Shown here: positions 40,186 to 53,732 of the stretch, one piece after another
Position numbering within the stretch: the first letter of the stretch is position 1
How the letters are laid out: each line of letters opens with the position of its first letter
Source of the DNA: Terebella lapidaria
Taxonomy: Eukaryota > Annelida > Polychaeta > Terebellida > Terebellidae
Assembly (NCBI GenBank): GCA_949152475.1
Contig: OX424564.1
Span: 29,758,165 to 29,822,164 of the forward strand
Length of the DNA: 64,000 nt
Direction: 5' to 3'
The notes under the pieces: model-generated
Seen by the model: the letters and a program-made list of their open reading frames with translations, nothing else
What the model was told of the DNA's origin: nothing
The model's database searches: none
Translations under genes and position numbers: made by a program

Positions 40186-40810
40186 ACATTTCAAGATCAT
40201 TGACCTTGAAATGATATATGCTGAATATTCTCACGATTTTGAATTTGACCTTTGACTCAATTTTCAAGGTCATGGGTGGCTAATATCTCAGTTATAATCG
40301 ACTAAATACCCTACGGTGTAGGAATCCATAGTGAACATATAGGAAATGATATATGCTGGATATTCCCATGACCTCGAACTTTACCTTTGACCTTATTTTC
40401 AAGGTCAGAGCACAAAATGACTAATAATATCACCTATTATCAACTTTTCAGCTTAGGAATCCATAGTGAACATATAGGAAATTATAAATTCTAAATATTC
40501 TAGTGACCTTGAATTTGACCTTTAACCTCATTTTCAAGGCCAGATAACAAAATGGCTAATTTATATCTCGCTAATTATCGATTTTACAGCTTAGGAAACA
40601 ATATATATGCTTAATTTCCCATGACCTTGACCTTTGACCTCATTTTAAAGGTCAGAGCACAGAATGGCTAATATCTCATTTATTATGGACTTTACAGCTT
40701 AGGAATCAAGTGTGGAATATAGTAAATGATATACTGAATATCCCCGTGGCTTGAATTTACCAATGACCTTATTTTCAAGCTCACGGGACAAAATGGCTAA
40801 TACTAGTAAC
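40186..40810 (+). repeat. tandem repeat with TGACCT half-sites, 5 units
   Basis: Five diverged units of about 112-145 bp. Each has a CATGACCTTGAATTTGACCTTTGACCT-like block (variable), a TTTTCAAGGTCA block, AAAATGGCTAATATCTC and CAGCTTAGGAATC. ACATATAGGAAAT recurs in the first units. At 40628-40640 TGACCTTTGACCT is a perfect direct repeat with one-base spacing (DR1), preceded without gap by another TGACCT at 40622. Related single copies occur near 4390 and 56520, so the block belongs to a dispersed family. Confidence 0.8.
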
Positions 40811-45200: not shown

Positions 45201-48200
45201 TTGTGTTTTGGAATTAAACTCAGCCAAATTACCATATGTTGAGTATTGAATGATGGAATATTCAAGACAAACTAACCAGTAATAAGTGTTATCTTTCAAG
45301 TGTACAGTTGATGATTTCAAGGCAGATTAACCGCAACAATCACTTAAAAATTTCGGCTGAGTCATTGATAAGATCCAAGTGGTCCATCTTCTATAAAAAT
45401 ATATAAATGACAAATTTGTACATGGTGTTTATGCACTCTTGTGCAGTGTGTGGTGGCCTACTTTCCAGTAAAGATGCTGTTGTATTTCTCGTGCAGGGTA
45501 TAACGTTTGGGTTCTTCGAGAACTTGCCCGCTGAGGACAAGACTCAAGTGGAGGACATCTTGTTTGGAGACAAGGCCCAGGCTGCAAAACCTGATGTACG
45601 TATTGGAACATATTGCGCACTGCGCTCAGATGTGGATTCTTTGCTTGTCCTTCCATATATTGAAACTATTCAACATTTGTGTGCTTCAATGGATTATATG
45701 CTGAATTAGATATCCCAATACCTGTGTTCTATTACCAATTACATGTATAATATTGTATAGTACACAGTCCTACAATAAACTTTTTTCGCCGCCATTGAAA
45801 TGACTGATCAACTTCTAAAGATGAAAGTATTGATGCTCACATTTGCTTTAATGACAGCACTCAGAATTTTTCAGTGTTTCTCTCAACAGCTGCCCTGGGA
45901 CGATGAAGATCCTGAAGTTTCCGCCACCTCTCCAATCCCTGTTAGTGGCGCAGTGGAGCGCGAACCAACACCCGACGCTCCGGTGGAAGCCCCTTCCCCC
46001 ACCACATTGCAGGAACCTGCCCCCCAACCTGAGGTGCCAGTTACCACGGGAACTAACAATGAGGGGCCAAGTGTACCCCTGCATCCACCGCCCGGCGTCC
46101 CTGGCCCCGTGTTCCACCCACATGGTTTGACAATGGTTCCTGGGATTCAACCCATGTACACCGCATACATGGGAATGTATCCACCACCATCCCAGGGCAT
46201 GGGGTCTGTACCCATCAGTCTTATGCAGATGGTGCCACCGCCACCAACGGCACCACTACAGCACCATCCCGCTCACATGGCCATGCCAATGAATGACTCA
46301 CAAATCGGTGTGCATCAGCCGGATAACAACAATATGATGGACAAAGAAAGCACAAAGATCCTTGGAGGTAAAACCTACGAGCGTCGCAACAAGAAGAAGC
46401 GTCCGGCAGACTACTATCAGAAGCTCAGCCAACAAGGCGGACCTGAACCCATGGGAAGGCCCCCAGGGGCCCAAGGTGGTGTCTATGGGATGGTACCACC
46501 CCAAGGACAGCCAATGATGGCAACCCAGCCTCCGATGCAGTATCAGAACACTGGGGTACACCCAGTACCACCCCAGTACATCGCCCATCACTCATCGCCA
46601 AGTCACATGATGCCAGGAACCTCACCCCATGCTTCCCACGAACGCATCCTTATCCCCACAGGCAGCCCTGGTCAGCACTACCACTCGGGCCTCCCAGCCG
46701 TGCCCATGTCATCCCCCTTCATACCCCCTGGTGCGCCTGTCCAGGGCCCCCCACCCCCACAGAGACTCCAGGGCAGTCATCTCTACCAGGAGCCTCTCCC
46801 CATAGCAACGCAAGCTCCGCCCGTCACTTCACCGCCACAGGAATGTCAGCCGTCAGATGCTATGGCGACTGCTGTCCAGGAGGGCGAAGCCAGCCAAAGG
46901 CATGATGCCACAGACTCTTCAATTTCTGGTGAAATATATTCAAATAGTTGTCGGACAGAACCTGAGGCAGATGCCTCGAATATCTCATTTGGCGAAGTCG
47001 ACGATGACATGAGGAATATCGCAGAAGAGAAAAACATGTTCCCGTGGGACCAAGCTAATAACAATGTCAAAAAGTCGCCGCAGCCAGTGAAACATGAGGA
47101 ATTTCCTTCCACAGAAGGCAAAGTTGAAATGCAAGACTTGTCTGGTGGCTCTGATGTGAAGGCTACACAGCTGAGCAGTGCCAAGGACTTGACAGAGACA
47201 TCACTGGCAGATAAGCTGTCAAACTGTCACATTGAACCCGCAGAGGTCGGGCAAGAGACCTGCTCACAGGTCTCTGGTGCTACTTCCGACCTCCCAGTTG
47301 CTAACGACGACTGCGCTGCTGCTATTCCAACTCCTGAAAAGCCCGAACTACCACCACCATCTATATCTATAACTGTAGAATGTCCGCCAATGCAAGTCGA
47401 AAGTCCACCTCTAAATAACTGTGAAAATGCCAATGATGCAGTGGCCAACGCCATGCCTGCAGCGCCGCCCAAGCCTAAAACTACATCCTGGGCTGGTCTG
47501 TTCCGCGGAACGACCACTGCGGAAGCCGCTACTGTGATTTACAACTCGACAAATGCAGTCGGCGCCCCAGCCGAGAATCAAGTTGGGAAAGAGGAGCCAG
47601 TGTCCATAACTAATGACAAGGGCGCTAAACATCTGGCTAGTAAGTGGACACTCGATTGGTTTACCTTTAGTTTTGTCTTTTCATTCAAATTGTCAAGGCT
47701 TCTGGTTTTAAAATATATTTGTAGATCTAGACGAAAATTATATTTTAATGCATAATAATTTAGACTCAAGTTGAAGACACGTGTGTTTCCAATAATTGAC
47801 CAAATGTACCTGAAGTATTAAAGATGAACAGATGTATCTACATGTATCTATGTTTTGCTCGCAATAAAACATTGGCAAGCAGAGTATGGAGACACTGCTG
47901 AATCAGCCTCTGTTTCTGTTTTCAGACCTTTTAAAGGACTACCAGTTGTCGTACGCTCCTCCCTCTCTCCAGCCCAGAGGCTTGACGAACCGTGGGAACT
48001 GGTGCTACGTCAATGCTGTATCCTTTACTATACTTTAAAACTGAATAACTGTGTAATGAGATTGTTTTGATTTGGCACAATCGAGTAGTGAAAATAATCA
48101 CATTTAGCAGCGATTCATTACAGAGTGGAGTTTTCATAAAGTAGCAAAATATCCTCATATGCTCTAAAGCTGCTATCAATATTGAAAGAATACAATTCCT

Positions 48201-51200
48201 TAACTAGTATTGCAGACCCTACAGTCACTGCTAGCTTGTGCACCGCTCTACAACCTTCTGAAAACTCTCCCCCACTCTGACAAATCCAGCAGGGGCCCAA
48301 GCTCAACTCCCATCATGGATAGCATGTAAGTTGTGAACATAACAATATAGTTTGACATTTGAAACCTTTTCGGAAAAAGACTTGCTTGAATAACATCAAA
48401 TGATGGAATCACCATGGAACTTTTTTGAATGAGTGTATTCTTTTCATTACAGAGTGGAGTTTGTCAACCAGTTCTCGCCGATGCCATCAATGAAACCAGT
48501 TGATAAAATGACCAAAGGTTTGTCTTCGTCGAGTCTTTTTGCATCTTGAGATTTTTATGGAAACATATTGTAGCATAAAAAGAAATTACTGTGTCCTTAT
48601 GACAGAGCCAACTTAAATGTTGCTGGGGAAAAATATGTCAAATATTGTTGTTTGTATATGATTTTTAGGCGGCAAAGGGAACATTAAGTACGACATTCAG
48701 CCGGGACCAACATTTGAGGTACAGAACATCTACAAAATGCTGCAGCTCATCAAATATGATGGCTTCAAGGTAAATAACAATGCCTGTTATATTATATTAT
48801 ATAATACCTATATATTATATAGATCTTTTCAGAAATCTTTCCGAAATAATATTTACAACTATAAAAACACAAAATAACTTTGCTGGATCGGAATTACAAA
48901 TGAAAGATGTGTGAATATGGAAAATGAATATCTCTGTTAATCCCTCCATCCAACCCACTATTGCGCAATAGACCGGGCGACAGGAAGATGCTGAAGAATT
49001 CCTGAGCTGTGTCCTCAACGGTCTACACGAGGAGATGAGTGCAGCCATCAAGTCCTTAGGGGAACCTGCGACCAACAACCATAACTGTGAGTTGTTTGCC
49101 TGGGAGCGTTCGTCATAAATATCATAATTTTGCATTAGCACAGTTCTTGAAGCAATTTTTGTGACCTCTAGCGCAAATTCTCAAGCAAGTTCCGAGAAAC
49201 TTGATGATTTTGAGGCATGTCTGAAAACGGCATTACTGTATTGGTCCTATTAGTGGCACGTGCCCTAATAGTAGAGCGTCCCCCTCTTTTCCCCAAAAAT
49301 GTTCAATTTTCGCAACCGAGTAATTCACTTCAAATCTCTCTAATAAGATCTTGGAGTGTTCCAATCCACATACTTATGTTATTTGAATCATAATAAAGGG
49401 GATTAAAGGATTGAACTGATATTATTCAGTGATTTTCCTAAATCTGACCTCTAGTCCTACCTAATTTTTGCGCGTAGTGCTGCAACGGTCTTGCTTCGGC
49501 TCGCCGTGCTACTATTAGGACTAATACGGTAGCTGAACCTTTCACTCACTCAAACATGAAATCTTAATAATAATAGCCGAAATGCAAATAGAATTTAGGG
49601 AATCCAAAATATTCTGACTTGTGTAACTGATAAAATAATTACCGGTACTGCATTGCACCAAGTAGGGATTCTGTGTTTGCTGTCTTCAGCCATGAACATA
49701 GAATAAACAATCTCGGTGCTAAAAAATCTTCTCATTGACAGTTAATGACACATTGATATTCCCAGAAGTATGTCACATCTGTCTTTGTGTACATCTATTT
49801 ACCTTTAAAAGGCTCGATAAACTTGAAATAGTTGTTTGAACGTTCGTGAAAGACGGCCAATATATTCTCATTGTCAGTTGAGAAAATCAATATGTGTAAT
49901 CGCAAATTCAACCCATACAAATATTTTTGCATTTTGAATAACGAATTTCGTGAAGGTACCATGAAATCTTTGACTGAAAATATAGTGACTAGCTTTTATT
50001 GCACCAAGTAGGGATTCTGTGTTTGCTGTCTACAGCTATAAACATAGAATAAACAATCTCGGTGCGACAGTATCTTGCTATTGGCAGTTCTTTACTAACT
50101 TTGTCTTTCTGAAAAGTTAGGCCTCTGTCAGTGGCATACATCTATCTGTCTGTTCACTATTCCTATAAGAAAACAAGACATGTTTGAATTTGTGAAAAAA
50201 GAGCTTTGCATGTTTGCTTGTAAGATAAATAGGTTTTGTCAGTATTGCACCAAGTAGGGATTCTGTGTTTGCTGCCACAGCTATAAACACAGAATAAACA
50301 ATCTCGGTGCTAAAACATCTCGTTAATGACAGTTCATGACAAACTTTGGCTCTCAGAGAAGTATGTCATTTTGTCATTTACATACAACATGCATATACTC
50401 TCCAACTGGTTTAAGAAATGATCAAAAATGGTGTTTGTGCTGGATTACAAAAGAGCAATCCAATGTTTTCTGATCGGCAGCTGAAGAAATAACTACAAAT
50501 GGCGAAGCTGACCTCGCGATGGAAGAAATTCCCGCAGACGAAATCGTCGATGACGACTGGGAACAAGTTGGTCCAAAGAAGCGAAGCGTCATCACACGAG
50601 TGGTAAAAAAAATAGTTCTTTCTTTGCGGCAGTTCTCCGATGCATTCTGAAGAAGTAATTCTGTGAAAATGTAGATATTTTGAGATGGTGGATGGTCACT
50701 TTGGAAGTCTTGATATTGAAACTGTTGTTTCGCACACACAAAACACGAAAAGATCGAGGTGGTTATTGCTACCTTCCTAAATTATTTTGTGGAACTTTCT
50801 TCGTTTCACAGGCAAACTTTGACACGTCGCCTATCTCGGAGATATTCCGAGGACAGCTCAGAAATATCCTGAATCGCCAGGGAGCGAAAGAGTCGGCCAC
50901 ACTTCAGCCGTTCTTCACACTACAGCTGGATATACAGGTGGGTGGCAGGTTTCCATGCTTTGAATAAATCATAATGAGTACACAGTTGTGTTGTTTGCAT
51001 ACATGTACTGTGTGACTAATATTGCAGTGAGAACTTGTTTGTGAGAACTTGTTTGTGCTATCTACTGAGTAATGGTCGATAATTATATACATCAACTTCC
51101 CCTATAAAGTGTGTTGAATGTGTATTTTTTATTGGAAACATTTTGTAGGAGTGAGTTTGTGCACCAAGTAGGGATTCTGTGTTTGTCAAAAATGGCCATA

Positions 51201-53732
51201 AACACAGAATAAACAATCTCGGTGCGAAAATGAATTTCAACTGGCAATATCCTGATATTTCTTCAGTGAAATGCCGGGCTTGTCATTGAAAAACATTACA
51301 GTGTATTTTATGTAACGATGGCTTAAGTTTTGATGCAGTCAATACAAGAATACTTTTACGTTTTGACAGTCGGAGAAAATCTACACAGTGCAGGATGCTT
51401 TGGAAGCGCTTGTCAGCCGTGAAACTCTACAGGGTGTCACATGTGTCAAAACCAACGTTGAGGTATAGTGATATATTGAAAAATTCTCTGGATATCTGTA
51501 TACTTTTTTATGCACATTAACGTTGATTGTTACAAAAAATTACAAAAATCTATGGACAGAGCAATAGTTTAACATGAATCATGACAATCGATCTTGAGAA
51601 TTATGATGGTAGGGTTCTGTGTGTTTAGTACATTCATCTACAATTCAAAATATTTAAACCATCGAAGAAAGACGAGGAAATGTACATATTCAAACACATA
51701 ATATGTCAAAATCCTGGAATTAGAGACCTATATGCAATATGTCGTAAATGATAAAATTCAAATTTTCCATTAAAAACAATCCTGTCGTTTTTGCAGGTTG
51801 ACGCGACCCGTCGAAGCATGCTAGAAAACTTGCCCCCAGTCCTTCTACTGCACCTCAAATGTTTCGTCTACGACAAGAACGGTGGCTGCCAGAAAGTTGT
51901 CAAACAAGTCGACTTCAGCAACGAGCTGGAAATCAACAAAGGTAAACCAACTGTAGTTGACTGTGCCCATTCCTTGGTGACAAAGTCCACAAATGTTTAC
52001 CCTCGCCCCGATAGGGGCAGAGGGTATTGTAATTGGGTCTGTCAGTTTGTATGTCTGTTTGTCTGTTTGTTTATCTGTCCGCGCGCATAACTCAAAACCG
52101 AATGGTCCGATCTTCCTGAAATTTATAGGGAAGAAGCGGTATCACCGTGGCTCGGTCCTCCTCAATTTTTGTCAAAATCAGAAAAAAATTGTTGCCATGG
52201 CAACGAAAAAAGAGAGAATCACATAATTGGCTATAACTCTAGTTCTAATGAATATTAATTTCTTAAACTAATTTTGTATTTTTCTTTGGCCAATTCCCAA
52301 CCCTATGGTGTACGGCCGATGGTCGTACGACGAAAACTCTCCATTATCGCCCGATGTCGAAAAATTGGGGGTCACGATTTCGGTTATTTTTTGCCAGCGA
52401 CGTTTCAATGCAAATGTCTGCGCTCATAACTCAAAGGCAAACAGTCTGATCGATCTGAAATCTATAGGACTGGAGTGCTATGATAGTCGCTCGGTCCCGT
52501 TCGAATTTTGTTCAAATCGGATGAAAACAGTCGCCATGGCAACGGAAAAAGTGAAAATCACTTAATTGGCTCTAACTCCGGTTCTACTTGATATTAGTTT
52601 TTCCAACTATTTTTGTATTTTTCTTTGGCCAATTCCCGATCGTTTGGTGTACGACCGATGGTCGTACGACGAAAACTCTCCATTATCGCCGGATGTCGAA
52701 AAATTGGGGATCACGATTTCGGTTATTTTTGGCCAGCGACGTTTCAGTGCAAATGTCTGCGCTCATAACTCAAAGGCAAACGGCCCGATAGATTTGAAAT
52801 TTATAGGGCTGGAGAGCTATGGTAGTGGCTCAGTCCCTTTCAAATTTTGCCAAAATCGGGTGAAAACGGTTGCCATGGCAACTGAAAAAATAAAATCACA
52901 TAATTGACTATAACTCCGGTTCTAATCAATATTAAATGTTCAACCTATTTTTGTATTGTTCTTCGGCCAATTCCCAATCGTATGGCGTACAACTGATGGT
53001 CTTAAGACCAAAACTCTCAATTATCGCCTAATTTTAGTGACTAAATCTGAAGGGCGAGGGTCTGCAATCTCTGATTGTCTCGTTTATGGAATGTTATTCG
53101 TAAGTTCAGCATATGTCGAGTTTGATCGAGTTGACTGTTTTGAGGAAGAATGTTTTCCTTTTGTTTACAGAACTGCTATCACAGAACTCCCGAATGAAGT
53201 ACACACAAGCTCAGCGTAAATACAAACTGTTTGCAGGTGAGTTAGAAATCAATACTTTTCAAATTCTCTTACTTCTTGCCTGTGACCAAATGTATCGACT
53301 TTCAAAACATTTCAAATTATGACTTGATAACTTGTTTACAAACTTACTTACCACATTAAATTTCAAGATGGTTTCGTTCAGTGAGCAATGGCTACAAAGA
53401 TACACTTTTACTACTGAAGATTACTGGTTGAAACCTATACATTGTTACAATGATCTATATTGATTTCCAAATTAAAATGAACGGACGAAGATATAGGAAT
53501 TCAGAATTAAAACGAGTGACACTCTTTTTCTCTCCGCATTTCAGTGGTGAAGCACATCGGCGTCCGGGCGGCTGGCGGTCACTACACTGCAGACGTTTAC
53601 TACCAGTCACTAGGCGAATGGCTTCACTTCGACGACAACCACGTGACCACGGTCTCCATGCCTTCGGTGTTCAAGTTCCGCGCACCAAAAATCCCTTATC
53701 TACTTTACTACAGGCGCACGGATTTGAGCTAG
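42201..53732 (+). CDS. USP10: ubiquitin carboxyl-terminal hydrolase 10-like, 14 exons
   Basis: Cysteine deubiquitinase, 1029 aa (human USP10 798). Exons: 42201-42218, 45497-45595, 45890-47639, 47926-48017, 48216-48325, 48453-48517, 48669-48769, 48972-49086, 50481-50602, 50812-50937, 51370-51462, 51797-51941, 53171-53236, 53545-53732; all GT-AG, exactly 1030 codons. Exon 1 (MSQTLQ) is inferred: it gives the right phase and puts FG at the same residues as human MALHSPQYIFGDF. Residues 7-13, GITFGFF, resemble the FGDF G3BP-binding motif. The 583-codon exon 3 is Pro/Gln/His-rich and disordered-looking, with the family signatures KKKRPADYYQKL (about 205-216) and SWAGLF (about 571-576); I see no PAM2-like LNxxAxEF. 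The USP domain has NRGNWCYVNA (Cys649), GRQEDAEEFL, DDDWEQVGP, KESATLQPFFTLQLDIQ, AGGHYTADV (His980) and FDD (Asp997/998), so it should be active. The extra length lies in the N-terminal region. Confidence 0.95.
43785..43822. other. 11-bp perfect hairpin in USP10 intron 1
   Basis: GCAGTCCAAGC and GCTTGGACTGC are perfect complements with a 16-nt loop. Weak pairing extends outward (CATGTTTCGG with GAAGTGATG). A third GCTTGGACTG follows at 43834. It may be a small transposon end or a structured RNA. Confidence 0.4.
49236..49529. mobile_element. 294-bp MITE in USP10 intron 8, copy 1
   Basis: The left end CTGTATTGGTCCTATTAGT and the right end ACTATTAGGACTAATACGG are inverted repeats, and TA flanks both sides (49234-49235, 49530-49531). 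The same element occurs at 63637-63924 with shared internal blocks such as CTTGGAGTGTTCCAATCCAC. No transposase. Likely Tc1/mariner-derived. Confidence 0.85.
49655..49719 (+). ncRNA. conserved intronic hairpin, microRNA-like, copy 1
   Basis: 65-nt stem-loop in USP10 intron 8, sense strand. The 5' arm begins GCACCAAGTAGGGATTCTGT (then GTTTG); the 3' arm ends AGAATAAACAATCTCGGTGC. Pairing is 5 bp at the base (GCACC/GGTGC), 2 bp, a conserved asymmetric internal loop, then about 11 bp (ATTCTGTGTTT with AAACAYAGAAT; one G-U here) and a variable loop (CTGTCTTCAGCCATG). Both arms are shared by all four copies. The internal loop is larger than in a canonical microRNA precursor, so another structured RNA is possible. 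Confidence 0.6.
50001..50065 (+). ncRNA. conserved intronic hairpin, microRNA-like, copy 2
   Basis: Same arms as the hairpin at 49655, in the same intron (8) and orientation. The loop is CTGTCTACAGCTATA. The 3' arm has AACATAGAAT as in copy 1. Downstream sequence (TTGGCAGTTCTTTAC) is weakly related to that after copies 1 and 3, showing local duplication of a longer segment followed by decay outside the arms. Confidence 0.6.
50247..50310 (+). ncRNA. conserved intronic hairpin, microRNA-like, copy 3
   Basis: 64 nt, USP10 intron 8, sense. 5' arm identical to the other copies; 3' arm has AACACAGAAT, giving a full 11-bp upper stem. The loop is one base shorter (CTGCCACAGCTATA). The downstream AATGACAGTTCATGACA resembles the flank of copy 1. 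Confidence 0.6.
51161..51225 (+). ncRNA. conserved intronic hairpin, microRNA-like, copy 4
   Basis: 65 nt in USP10 intron 10, sense, two exons downstream of copies 1-3. The 5' arm is identical up to GTTTG and the 3' arm is like copy 3. The loop (TCAAAAATGGCCATA) and both flanks are unrelated to the other copies, making this the most diverged locus and the best evidence that the arms are under constraint. Confidence 0.6.
51999..53061 (+). mobile_element. 1.06-kb element with three 339-bp units, USP10 intron 12
   Basis: Starts with ACCCTCGCCCC followed by GATAGGGGCAGAGGGT, which fold into a terminal hairpin, and ends with AGGGCGAGGGT, the inverse of the start. Between them lie two full units and a partial one with a period of exactly 339 bp (CATAACTCAAA at 52086, 52425, 52764). 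Each unit carries GTTGCCATGGCAAC or one variant (52191, 52530, 52869), then CTTTGGCCAATTCCC and GAAAACTCTCCATTATCGCC. As 339 is a multiple of three, similar open frames repeat (52305-52907), but no domain is recognised. No clear target duplication. Probably a non-autonomous DNA transposon. Confidence 0.7.

Follow-up and report, generated by a model that had tools for sequence, protein, structure and literature searches.

Four paralogous intronic units in a ubiquitin-specific protease gene of Terebella lapidaria as probable box H/ACA snoRNAs with a predicted 28S rRNA target

Introduction

Box H/ACA snoRNAs have a hairpin, a hinge with the H box, a second hairpin and an ACA, and their target reads as the reverse complement of the 3′ guide, then UN, then the reverse complement of the 5′ guide. 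ScaRNAs can also be H/ACA RNAs, and their CAB box has the motif UGAG. One review (PMC12205218) places the pseudouridylation pocket 14 or 15 nucleotides above the box, describes the presence of several snoRNAs in one intron, and reports that H/ACA snoRNAs themselves give 20–24 nt fragments. Duplication of snoRNAs and their movement between introns have been described as well (PMC3412847).

Here we analyzed a 64-kb stretch of Terebella lapidaria DNA (64,000 nucleotides, "the window"), in which a first-pass annotation had recorded four hairpins as a candidate microRNA or structured RNA cluster. We conclude, with a probability of about 0.93, that the locus encodes four paralogous intronic box H/ACA snoRNAs, the hairpins being their first halves. 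This reading follows from the order hairpin-ANANNA-hairpin-ACA in all four units, the spacing of the pocket, the invariant guide, the lack of copies found elsewhere, and a fitting site on 28S rRNA. The units share with box H/ACA snoRNAs the hairpin-hinge-hairpin-ACA layout, a pocket ~15 nt above the box and a sense intronic location; no architectural departure was found, and no known orthologue was identified. Compared with the described intronic snoRNA clusters, the locus differs in that three same-guide copies share an intron and the host gene carries the fourth in another intron nearby. The snoRNAs are new, within a known class.

Results and discussion

Host gene and genomic location

The host gene was modeled on the plus strand at 45800–53729, with 11 exon segments placed and a provisional 5′ end. 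In this provisional model, the ends of segments 1, 2, 5 and 8 are off by 1–2 bases. Pfam UCH matched three of seven exon pieces, one of them above the curated cut-off, and the last exon matched solved USP structures by sequence, indicating that the host is a ubiquitin-specific protease. It is probably USP10, the label given in the first-pass annotation. A protein search with the large exon found one relative.

Copies 1–3 lie in one intron (49087–50480, plus strand, 1,394 nt) and copy 4 in another (50938–51369, plus strand), all in sense direction, as previously annotated. Both introns have GT/AG ends and open frames on either side. One further intron lies between them, compatible with their earlier numbering as 8 and 10. 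The distance from the unit end to the 3′ splice site is 684 nt for copy 1, 337 nt for copy 2, 91 nt for copy 3 and 71 nt for copy 4.

A literature search on snoRNAs in USP10 introns brought up no such snoRNA evident from titles and abstract openings. Among the matches listed for marine-invertebrate snoRNAs nothing was relevant by title, and a search on mollusc snoRNAs, pseudouridine and 28S rRNA in combination gave nothing relevant.

Two tandem repeats were also seen in the window. One consists of 2.6 copies of a 339-bp unit and lies in a later intron of the host gene (52162–53028); the other, at 40319–40597, has two copies of a 135-bp unit.

The first hairpin

On recheck, the four hairpins were found at 49655, 50001, 50247 and 51161 on the plus strand, at the positions first given. 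All four share an identical 25-nt 5′ arm, which occurs exactly four times in the window. The 25-nt 3′ arm, also with four occurrences, has a single T/C difference (two copies each). Neither arm was found in 100 shuffles. The T/C change turns a G-U into a G-C pair (columns 19–45 of the consensus fold), so that pairing is kept, as the first-pass annotation had noted.

The stem has 11 contiguous pairs above a conserved asymmetric internal loop in all copies. The conserved region of this loop measures 8 × 10 nt; the fold pairs two positions within it, leaving a 5 × 7 loop. In sense orientation the hairpins folded with −20.8 to −24.1 kcal/mol (z −3.5 to −5.0), and in antisense with −16.6 to −26.6 kcal/mol (z −2.2 to −4.9). 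The antisense folds are thus about as strong, and the strand does not follow from folding alone. An antisense reading was considered and discarded: the antisense guide had no site on a 1.3-kb LSU sequence (L005, see below), and a covariance model of the units (R1) scored 16–28 bits on the minus strand vs 141–161 bits on the plus strand, the minus-strand matches reflecting the near-palindrome itself.

Architecture of the units

Downstream of hairpin 1, all four copies have an ANANNA hinge, a second hairpin and an ACA, giving units of ~140 nt (138–143 nt), with the 3′ ends placed by convention at ACA + 3 nt. All units are on the plus strand. Copy 1 (49655–49796) has hairpin 1 at 49655–49719, the H box AAAAAA from 49721 and the ACA at 49791–49793. 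In copy 2 (50001–50143), hairpin 1 spans 50001–50065 and is followed by the H box ACAGTA from 50067 and the ACA at 50138–50140. For copy 3 (50247–50389) the corresponding positions are 50247–50310, AAAACA from 50312 and 50384–50386, and for copy 4 (51161–51298) they are 51161–51225, AAATGA from 51228 and 51293–51295. The pocket of hairpin 1 has a 5′ guide, AAGUAGGG (49660–49667 in copy 1, plus strand), and a 3′ guide, AAACAAUCUC (49705–49714 in copy 1, plus strand), both identical across the four copies.

Measured on the 3′ side, from the upper stem to the end of hairpin 1, the pocket lies 15 nt above the hairpin end in every copy. The H box begins after 1–2 spacer nucleotides, with copy 4 requiring a 1-nt shift. 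Across the two host introns, the background fraction of positions with ANANNA at the equivalent offset is 0.061. This rate serves as a guide and not as a test, and its fourth power is no fair probability, because the offset was picked post hoc and the copies are related by descent; the background also included the units. The ACA is aligned in all copies, 1–2 nt past hairpin 2.

The second hairpin had z-scores of −5.8 in copy 2, −3.4 in copy 3 and −4.1 in copy 4. Among 145 background windows of 60 nt, taken from eight of the ten modeled introns, none reached z −3.7 and two reached −2.3. With z −0.95, the second hairpin of copy 1 is weak and has no support from folding energy. Of eight 66-nt windows beside the units, the one upstream of copy 4 reached z −4.4. 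It corresponds to a separate strong hairpin at 51094–51153 (z −3.5 to −4.4), which rivals the second hairpins in stability. The sequences upstream of the four copies resemble one another no more than expected by chance.

The hairpin-hinge-hairpin-tail folds were obtained with 9 nt at the start of the hinge and 6 nt at the end of the unit constrained open. When folded unconstrained, the hinge stayed open in copies 1 and 3, and paired with the tail in copies 2 and 4. By eye, no UGAG was found in the apical loops of the four constrained folds, and in this the units differ from scaRNAs with a CAB box.

Conservation and selection

Pairwise identity between the copies was 1.00 in the 5′ arm and 0.92–1.00 in the 3′ arm, 0.47–0.86 in the apical part and 0.44–0.89 in the hinge. 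Hairpin 2 with the ACA reached 0.56–0.69 (shuffled baseline 0.5), and the 60-nt flanks 0.42–0.60 (baseline 0.51). In hairpin 1, the lower stem and the pocket are conserved as strongly as the upper stem. The 28 pairs of the consensus fold include three changed on both sides, four more changed on one side, one gapped and none broken. This covariation is only supporting, since the four sequences also served to build the fold.

The first-pass annotation had described the loops and flanks as strongly diverged. This is so for the apical loops and for the flanks in general; the downstream flank retains some structure, as the second hairpin and the ACA are located there in every copy. Going by the identity values, the units retain traces of their duplication that are gone from the flanks, and the pocket and its stems have stayed constant. 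Reading the asymmetric internal loop as a pseudouridylation pocket accounts for the constancy of pocket and stems and for the drift of the apical loop, hairpin 2 and the flanks. The earlier proposal of a structured RNA under selection at the RNA level is supported. Hairpin 2 has diverged; its role is probably structural, not that of a conserved guide.

Comparison with known RNA families

No Rfam family reached its gathering score within the window, in line with the earlier description of the hairpins as a candidate unknown cluster. The best plus-strand match of the region scans was SNORA40 (RF00561), aligned over positions 1–128 of its 128-position model on copy 4. It scored 19.9 bits vs a gathering score of 51 (E 1.8–3.1), and the pocket letters differ in the alignment. 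The lowest E-value (0.019–0.033) belonged to the nematode RNA ceN47, with 23.9 of 35 bits. This candidate was rejected as sub-threshold and on the minus strand, with nearly the whole model unpaired. As both SNORA40 and ceN47 stayed below threshold, we placed the element in neither. SNORA20 matched copy 2 with 12.8 of 60 bits, also sub-threshold. A tRNA scan found none.

Genomic copy number and alternative readings

A DNA search of the 762-Mb assembly with copy 1 gave at least four matches, namely the four copies, all in the host gene. A 19-nt guide-plus-stem pattern, allowing up to two mismatches, matched the four copies exactly and four more loci with two mismatches each, compared with 21 for the reversed control. 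The R1 model had no match at E ≤1 in those four loci, and across the window its plus-strand matches were the four units from which it was built.

The first-pass annotation had named many copies elsewhere in the genome as a point that would speak against a functional RNA family. Having looked for them, we found four copies genome-wide, and with only these found in 762 Mb a mobile palindrome is unlikely. The copies do differ in spacing and flanks, and snoRNAs themselves have been described as mobile (PMC3412847). Still, the dispersed copies of a mobile element were not found, all four matches lying in the host gene, and neither target duplications nor A-tails were evident in the 40-nt flanks. 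We therefore regard a palindrome or MITE inserted four times in the host gene as extremely improbable. The proposed four-copy microRNA cluster, in which hairpin 1 would be a pre-miRNA with both arms conserved, is not supported and appears very improbable. It has in its favor the conserved arms, the diverged apical loop and the stability of the hairpin, together with sub-threshold Rfam matches to mir-283 (minus strand of copy 4, 18.6 of 50 bits), mir-711 (copy 2, 13.6 of 68 bits) and mir-221 (copy 2, 10.3 of 46.6 bits). However, no miRNA family reaches its gathering score, and instead of a near-continuous arm duplex of ~22 bp, the conserved 8 × 10 nt region interrupts the stem in every copy. 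The ANANNA, second hairpin and ACA that follow hairpin 1 in all four copies also argue against a microRNA, as does the equal conservation of the lower stem, pocket and upper stem. The asymmetric internal loop, earlier noted as unusual for a microRNA, is indeed present; we read it as a pseudouridylation pocket. Small-RNA reads alone would not separate the two classes, since H/ACA snoRNAs also yield 20–24 nt fragments.

Within the H/ACA reading, some copies might be decaying pseudogenes, with one to three functional ones. The weak second hairpin of copy 1 fits this idea, which we nevertheless find unlikely, as all four copies share a near-identical guide and near-identical stems in hairpin 1 despite the 0.56–0.69 identity of hairpin 2. 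This pattern suggests either that all four are kept under selection or that hairpin 1 alone has been homogenized.

Predicted 28S rRNA target

A candidate site in 28S was proposed first and then tested on actual sequence. In the T. lapidaria 28S rRNA (L028, 1,141 nt), the guide of hairpin 1 matches GUUU-[UA]-CCCUAC, followed by A, with 4 + 6 = 10 contiguous pairs in the expected register. Spelled out on 28S, the predicted target site is GUUU-U-ACCCUACAG. The next-best site in these 1,141 nt scores 5. A score of 10 was reached by 54 of 5000 shuffled guides and on 29 of 1000 shuffled 6.8-kb targets. Among 24 wrong pocket registers the best reached 9, 8.5, 8.5 and 7. The site sequence is the same in eight of nine T. 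lapidaria loci, from five genomic places; the ninth (L034) lacks the search string.

Seven further sequences (L001–L007) carry an identical site, all of them selected by a pattern that contains it. In L005, a eukaryotic-type LSU of 1,320 nt, the best of 343 uridines is GUUU-[UA]-CCCUACU, with 4 + 7 Watson-Crick pairs. It is the sole site with at least three pairs on each side. Equally high scores were reached by 15 of 5000 shuffled guides and, with letter-shuffled 7.9-kb targets, in 12 of 1000 cases. Opening the A-U pair above the pocket was also tried and gave merely a 6-point site on L005. Within L001–L007, L001 alone was confirmed as eukaryotic LSU by Rfam. The Rfam consensus at this place is GGUUAGUUUUACCCUaCu, an independent sign that the site may be common in eukaryotes.

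The exact 28S target pattern was not found in the T. lapidaria genome, where the 28S copies examined differ by one base: they read CCCUAC-A-GAUG (L027 at ~9590, and L028–L030) vs CCCUAC-U-GAUG in L001–L007. This A costs the seventh pair found on L001–L007; the guide retains an A able to pair with U. For the second pocket of copy 2, no target was found on the 1,141 nt of T. lapidaria 28S. Eukaryotic 18S and 28S patterns had no match in viral contigs.

Counting along L001 from the Um-Gm-Ψ triplet places the target at the equivalent of human 28S U4528. The letters of L001 fit all 13 human modifications compared (Um4468, Gm4469, Ψ4470, Ψ4491, Am4493, m3U4500, Ψ4502, Cm4506, Ψ4522, Am4541, Ψ4546, Ψ4549 and Am4560). 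In the part consulted of a human 28S modification table (PMC9916637), nothing is listed between 4522 and 4541.

With ~1.1 kb of T. lapidaria 28S scanned and moderate statistics, the target is a prediction only. On the basis of base pairing, we slightly favor 28S GUUU-[ΨA]-CCCUAC, the U4528 equivalent, as the pseudouridylation target. A serious competing possibility, to which we give somewhat less than even odds, is that the same H/ACA snoRNAs have another RNA as their true target, such as 18S, the rest of 28S, a U snRNA or an mRNA. The scan of T. lapidaria LSU rRNA covered 1,141 nt, one 30-nt pattern with up to two mismatches did not find 18S in the genome, and the moderate statistics of the 28S match leave room for such a target. 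Against it stands that the proposed site was the only one to score above 5 in those 1,141 nt, and that L005 (1,320 nt) has no other site with at least three pairs on each side.

Proposed function

For the four H/ACA snoRNAs we infer expression, protein binding, processing and target. For each snoRNA, excision from the host intron and trimming would leave an RNA of ~140 nt, to which dyskerin, NHP2, NOP10 and GAR1 would bind. Hairpin 1 would then pair with rRNA through its pocket, exposing one uridine for conversion to pseudouridine. The predicted site lies in the 3′ part of 28S, near the peptidyl-transferase region. More tentatively, and with odds clearly on the lower side, the locus may be a lineage-specific guide, with four same-guide copies in one gene, that installs Ψ at 28S GUUU-Ψ-ACCCUAC (U4528 equivalent). 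USP10 has been connected with stress granules and with the quality control of ribosomes. If this proposal is true, the Ψ dose would be tied to the transcription of a ubiquitin protease gene, perhaps USP10.

What had been presented as an unknown hairpin family can now be tested as a snoRNA family, for which a candidate target nucleotide is named. Of mild interest are the predicted Ψ site and the presence of three copies within a single intron. If the target holds, the locus would combine a ribosomal Ψ absent from the human table, as far as consulted (PMC9916637), with an array of same-guide snoRNAs in a ubiquitin-protease gene. The case also suggests that, for a conserved intronic hairpin with a fixed asymmetric loop, the downstream sequence should be searched for an H box, a hairpin and an ACA before a microRNA is called.

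Observations on the rRNA sequences

Rfam scans of eight loci on rDNA contigs of the T. lapidaria genome recognized only 3′ pieces of LSU in six and no rRNA in two. The 28S pieces in L027, L029 and L030 (contigs C375 and C83) start abruptly at Rfam LSU position 2390. The sequence adjoining these starts had no rRNA match, possibly due to an insertion into 28S or to truncation. Six contigs labeled as bacterial MAGs (L002–L007) carry the eukaryotic-type 28S pattern, in five of them within ~310 nt of an end of the sequence available, likely due to eukaryotic contamination.
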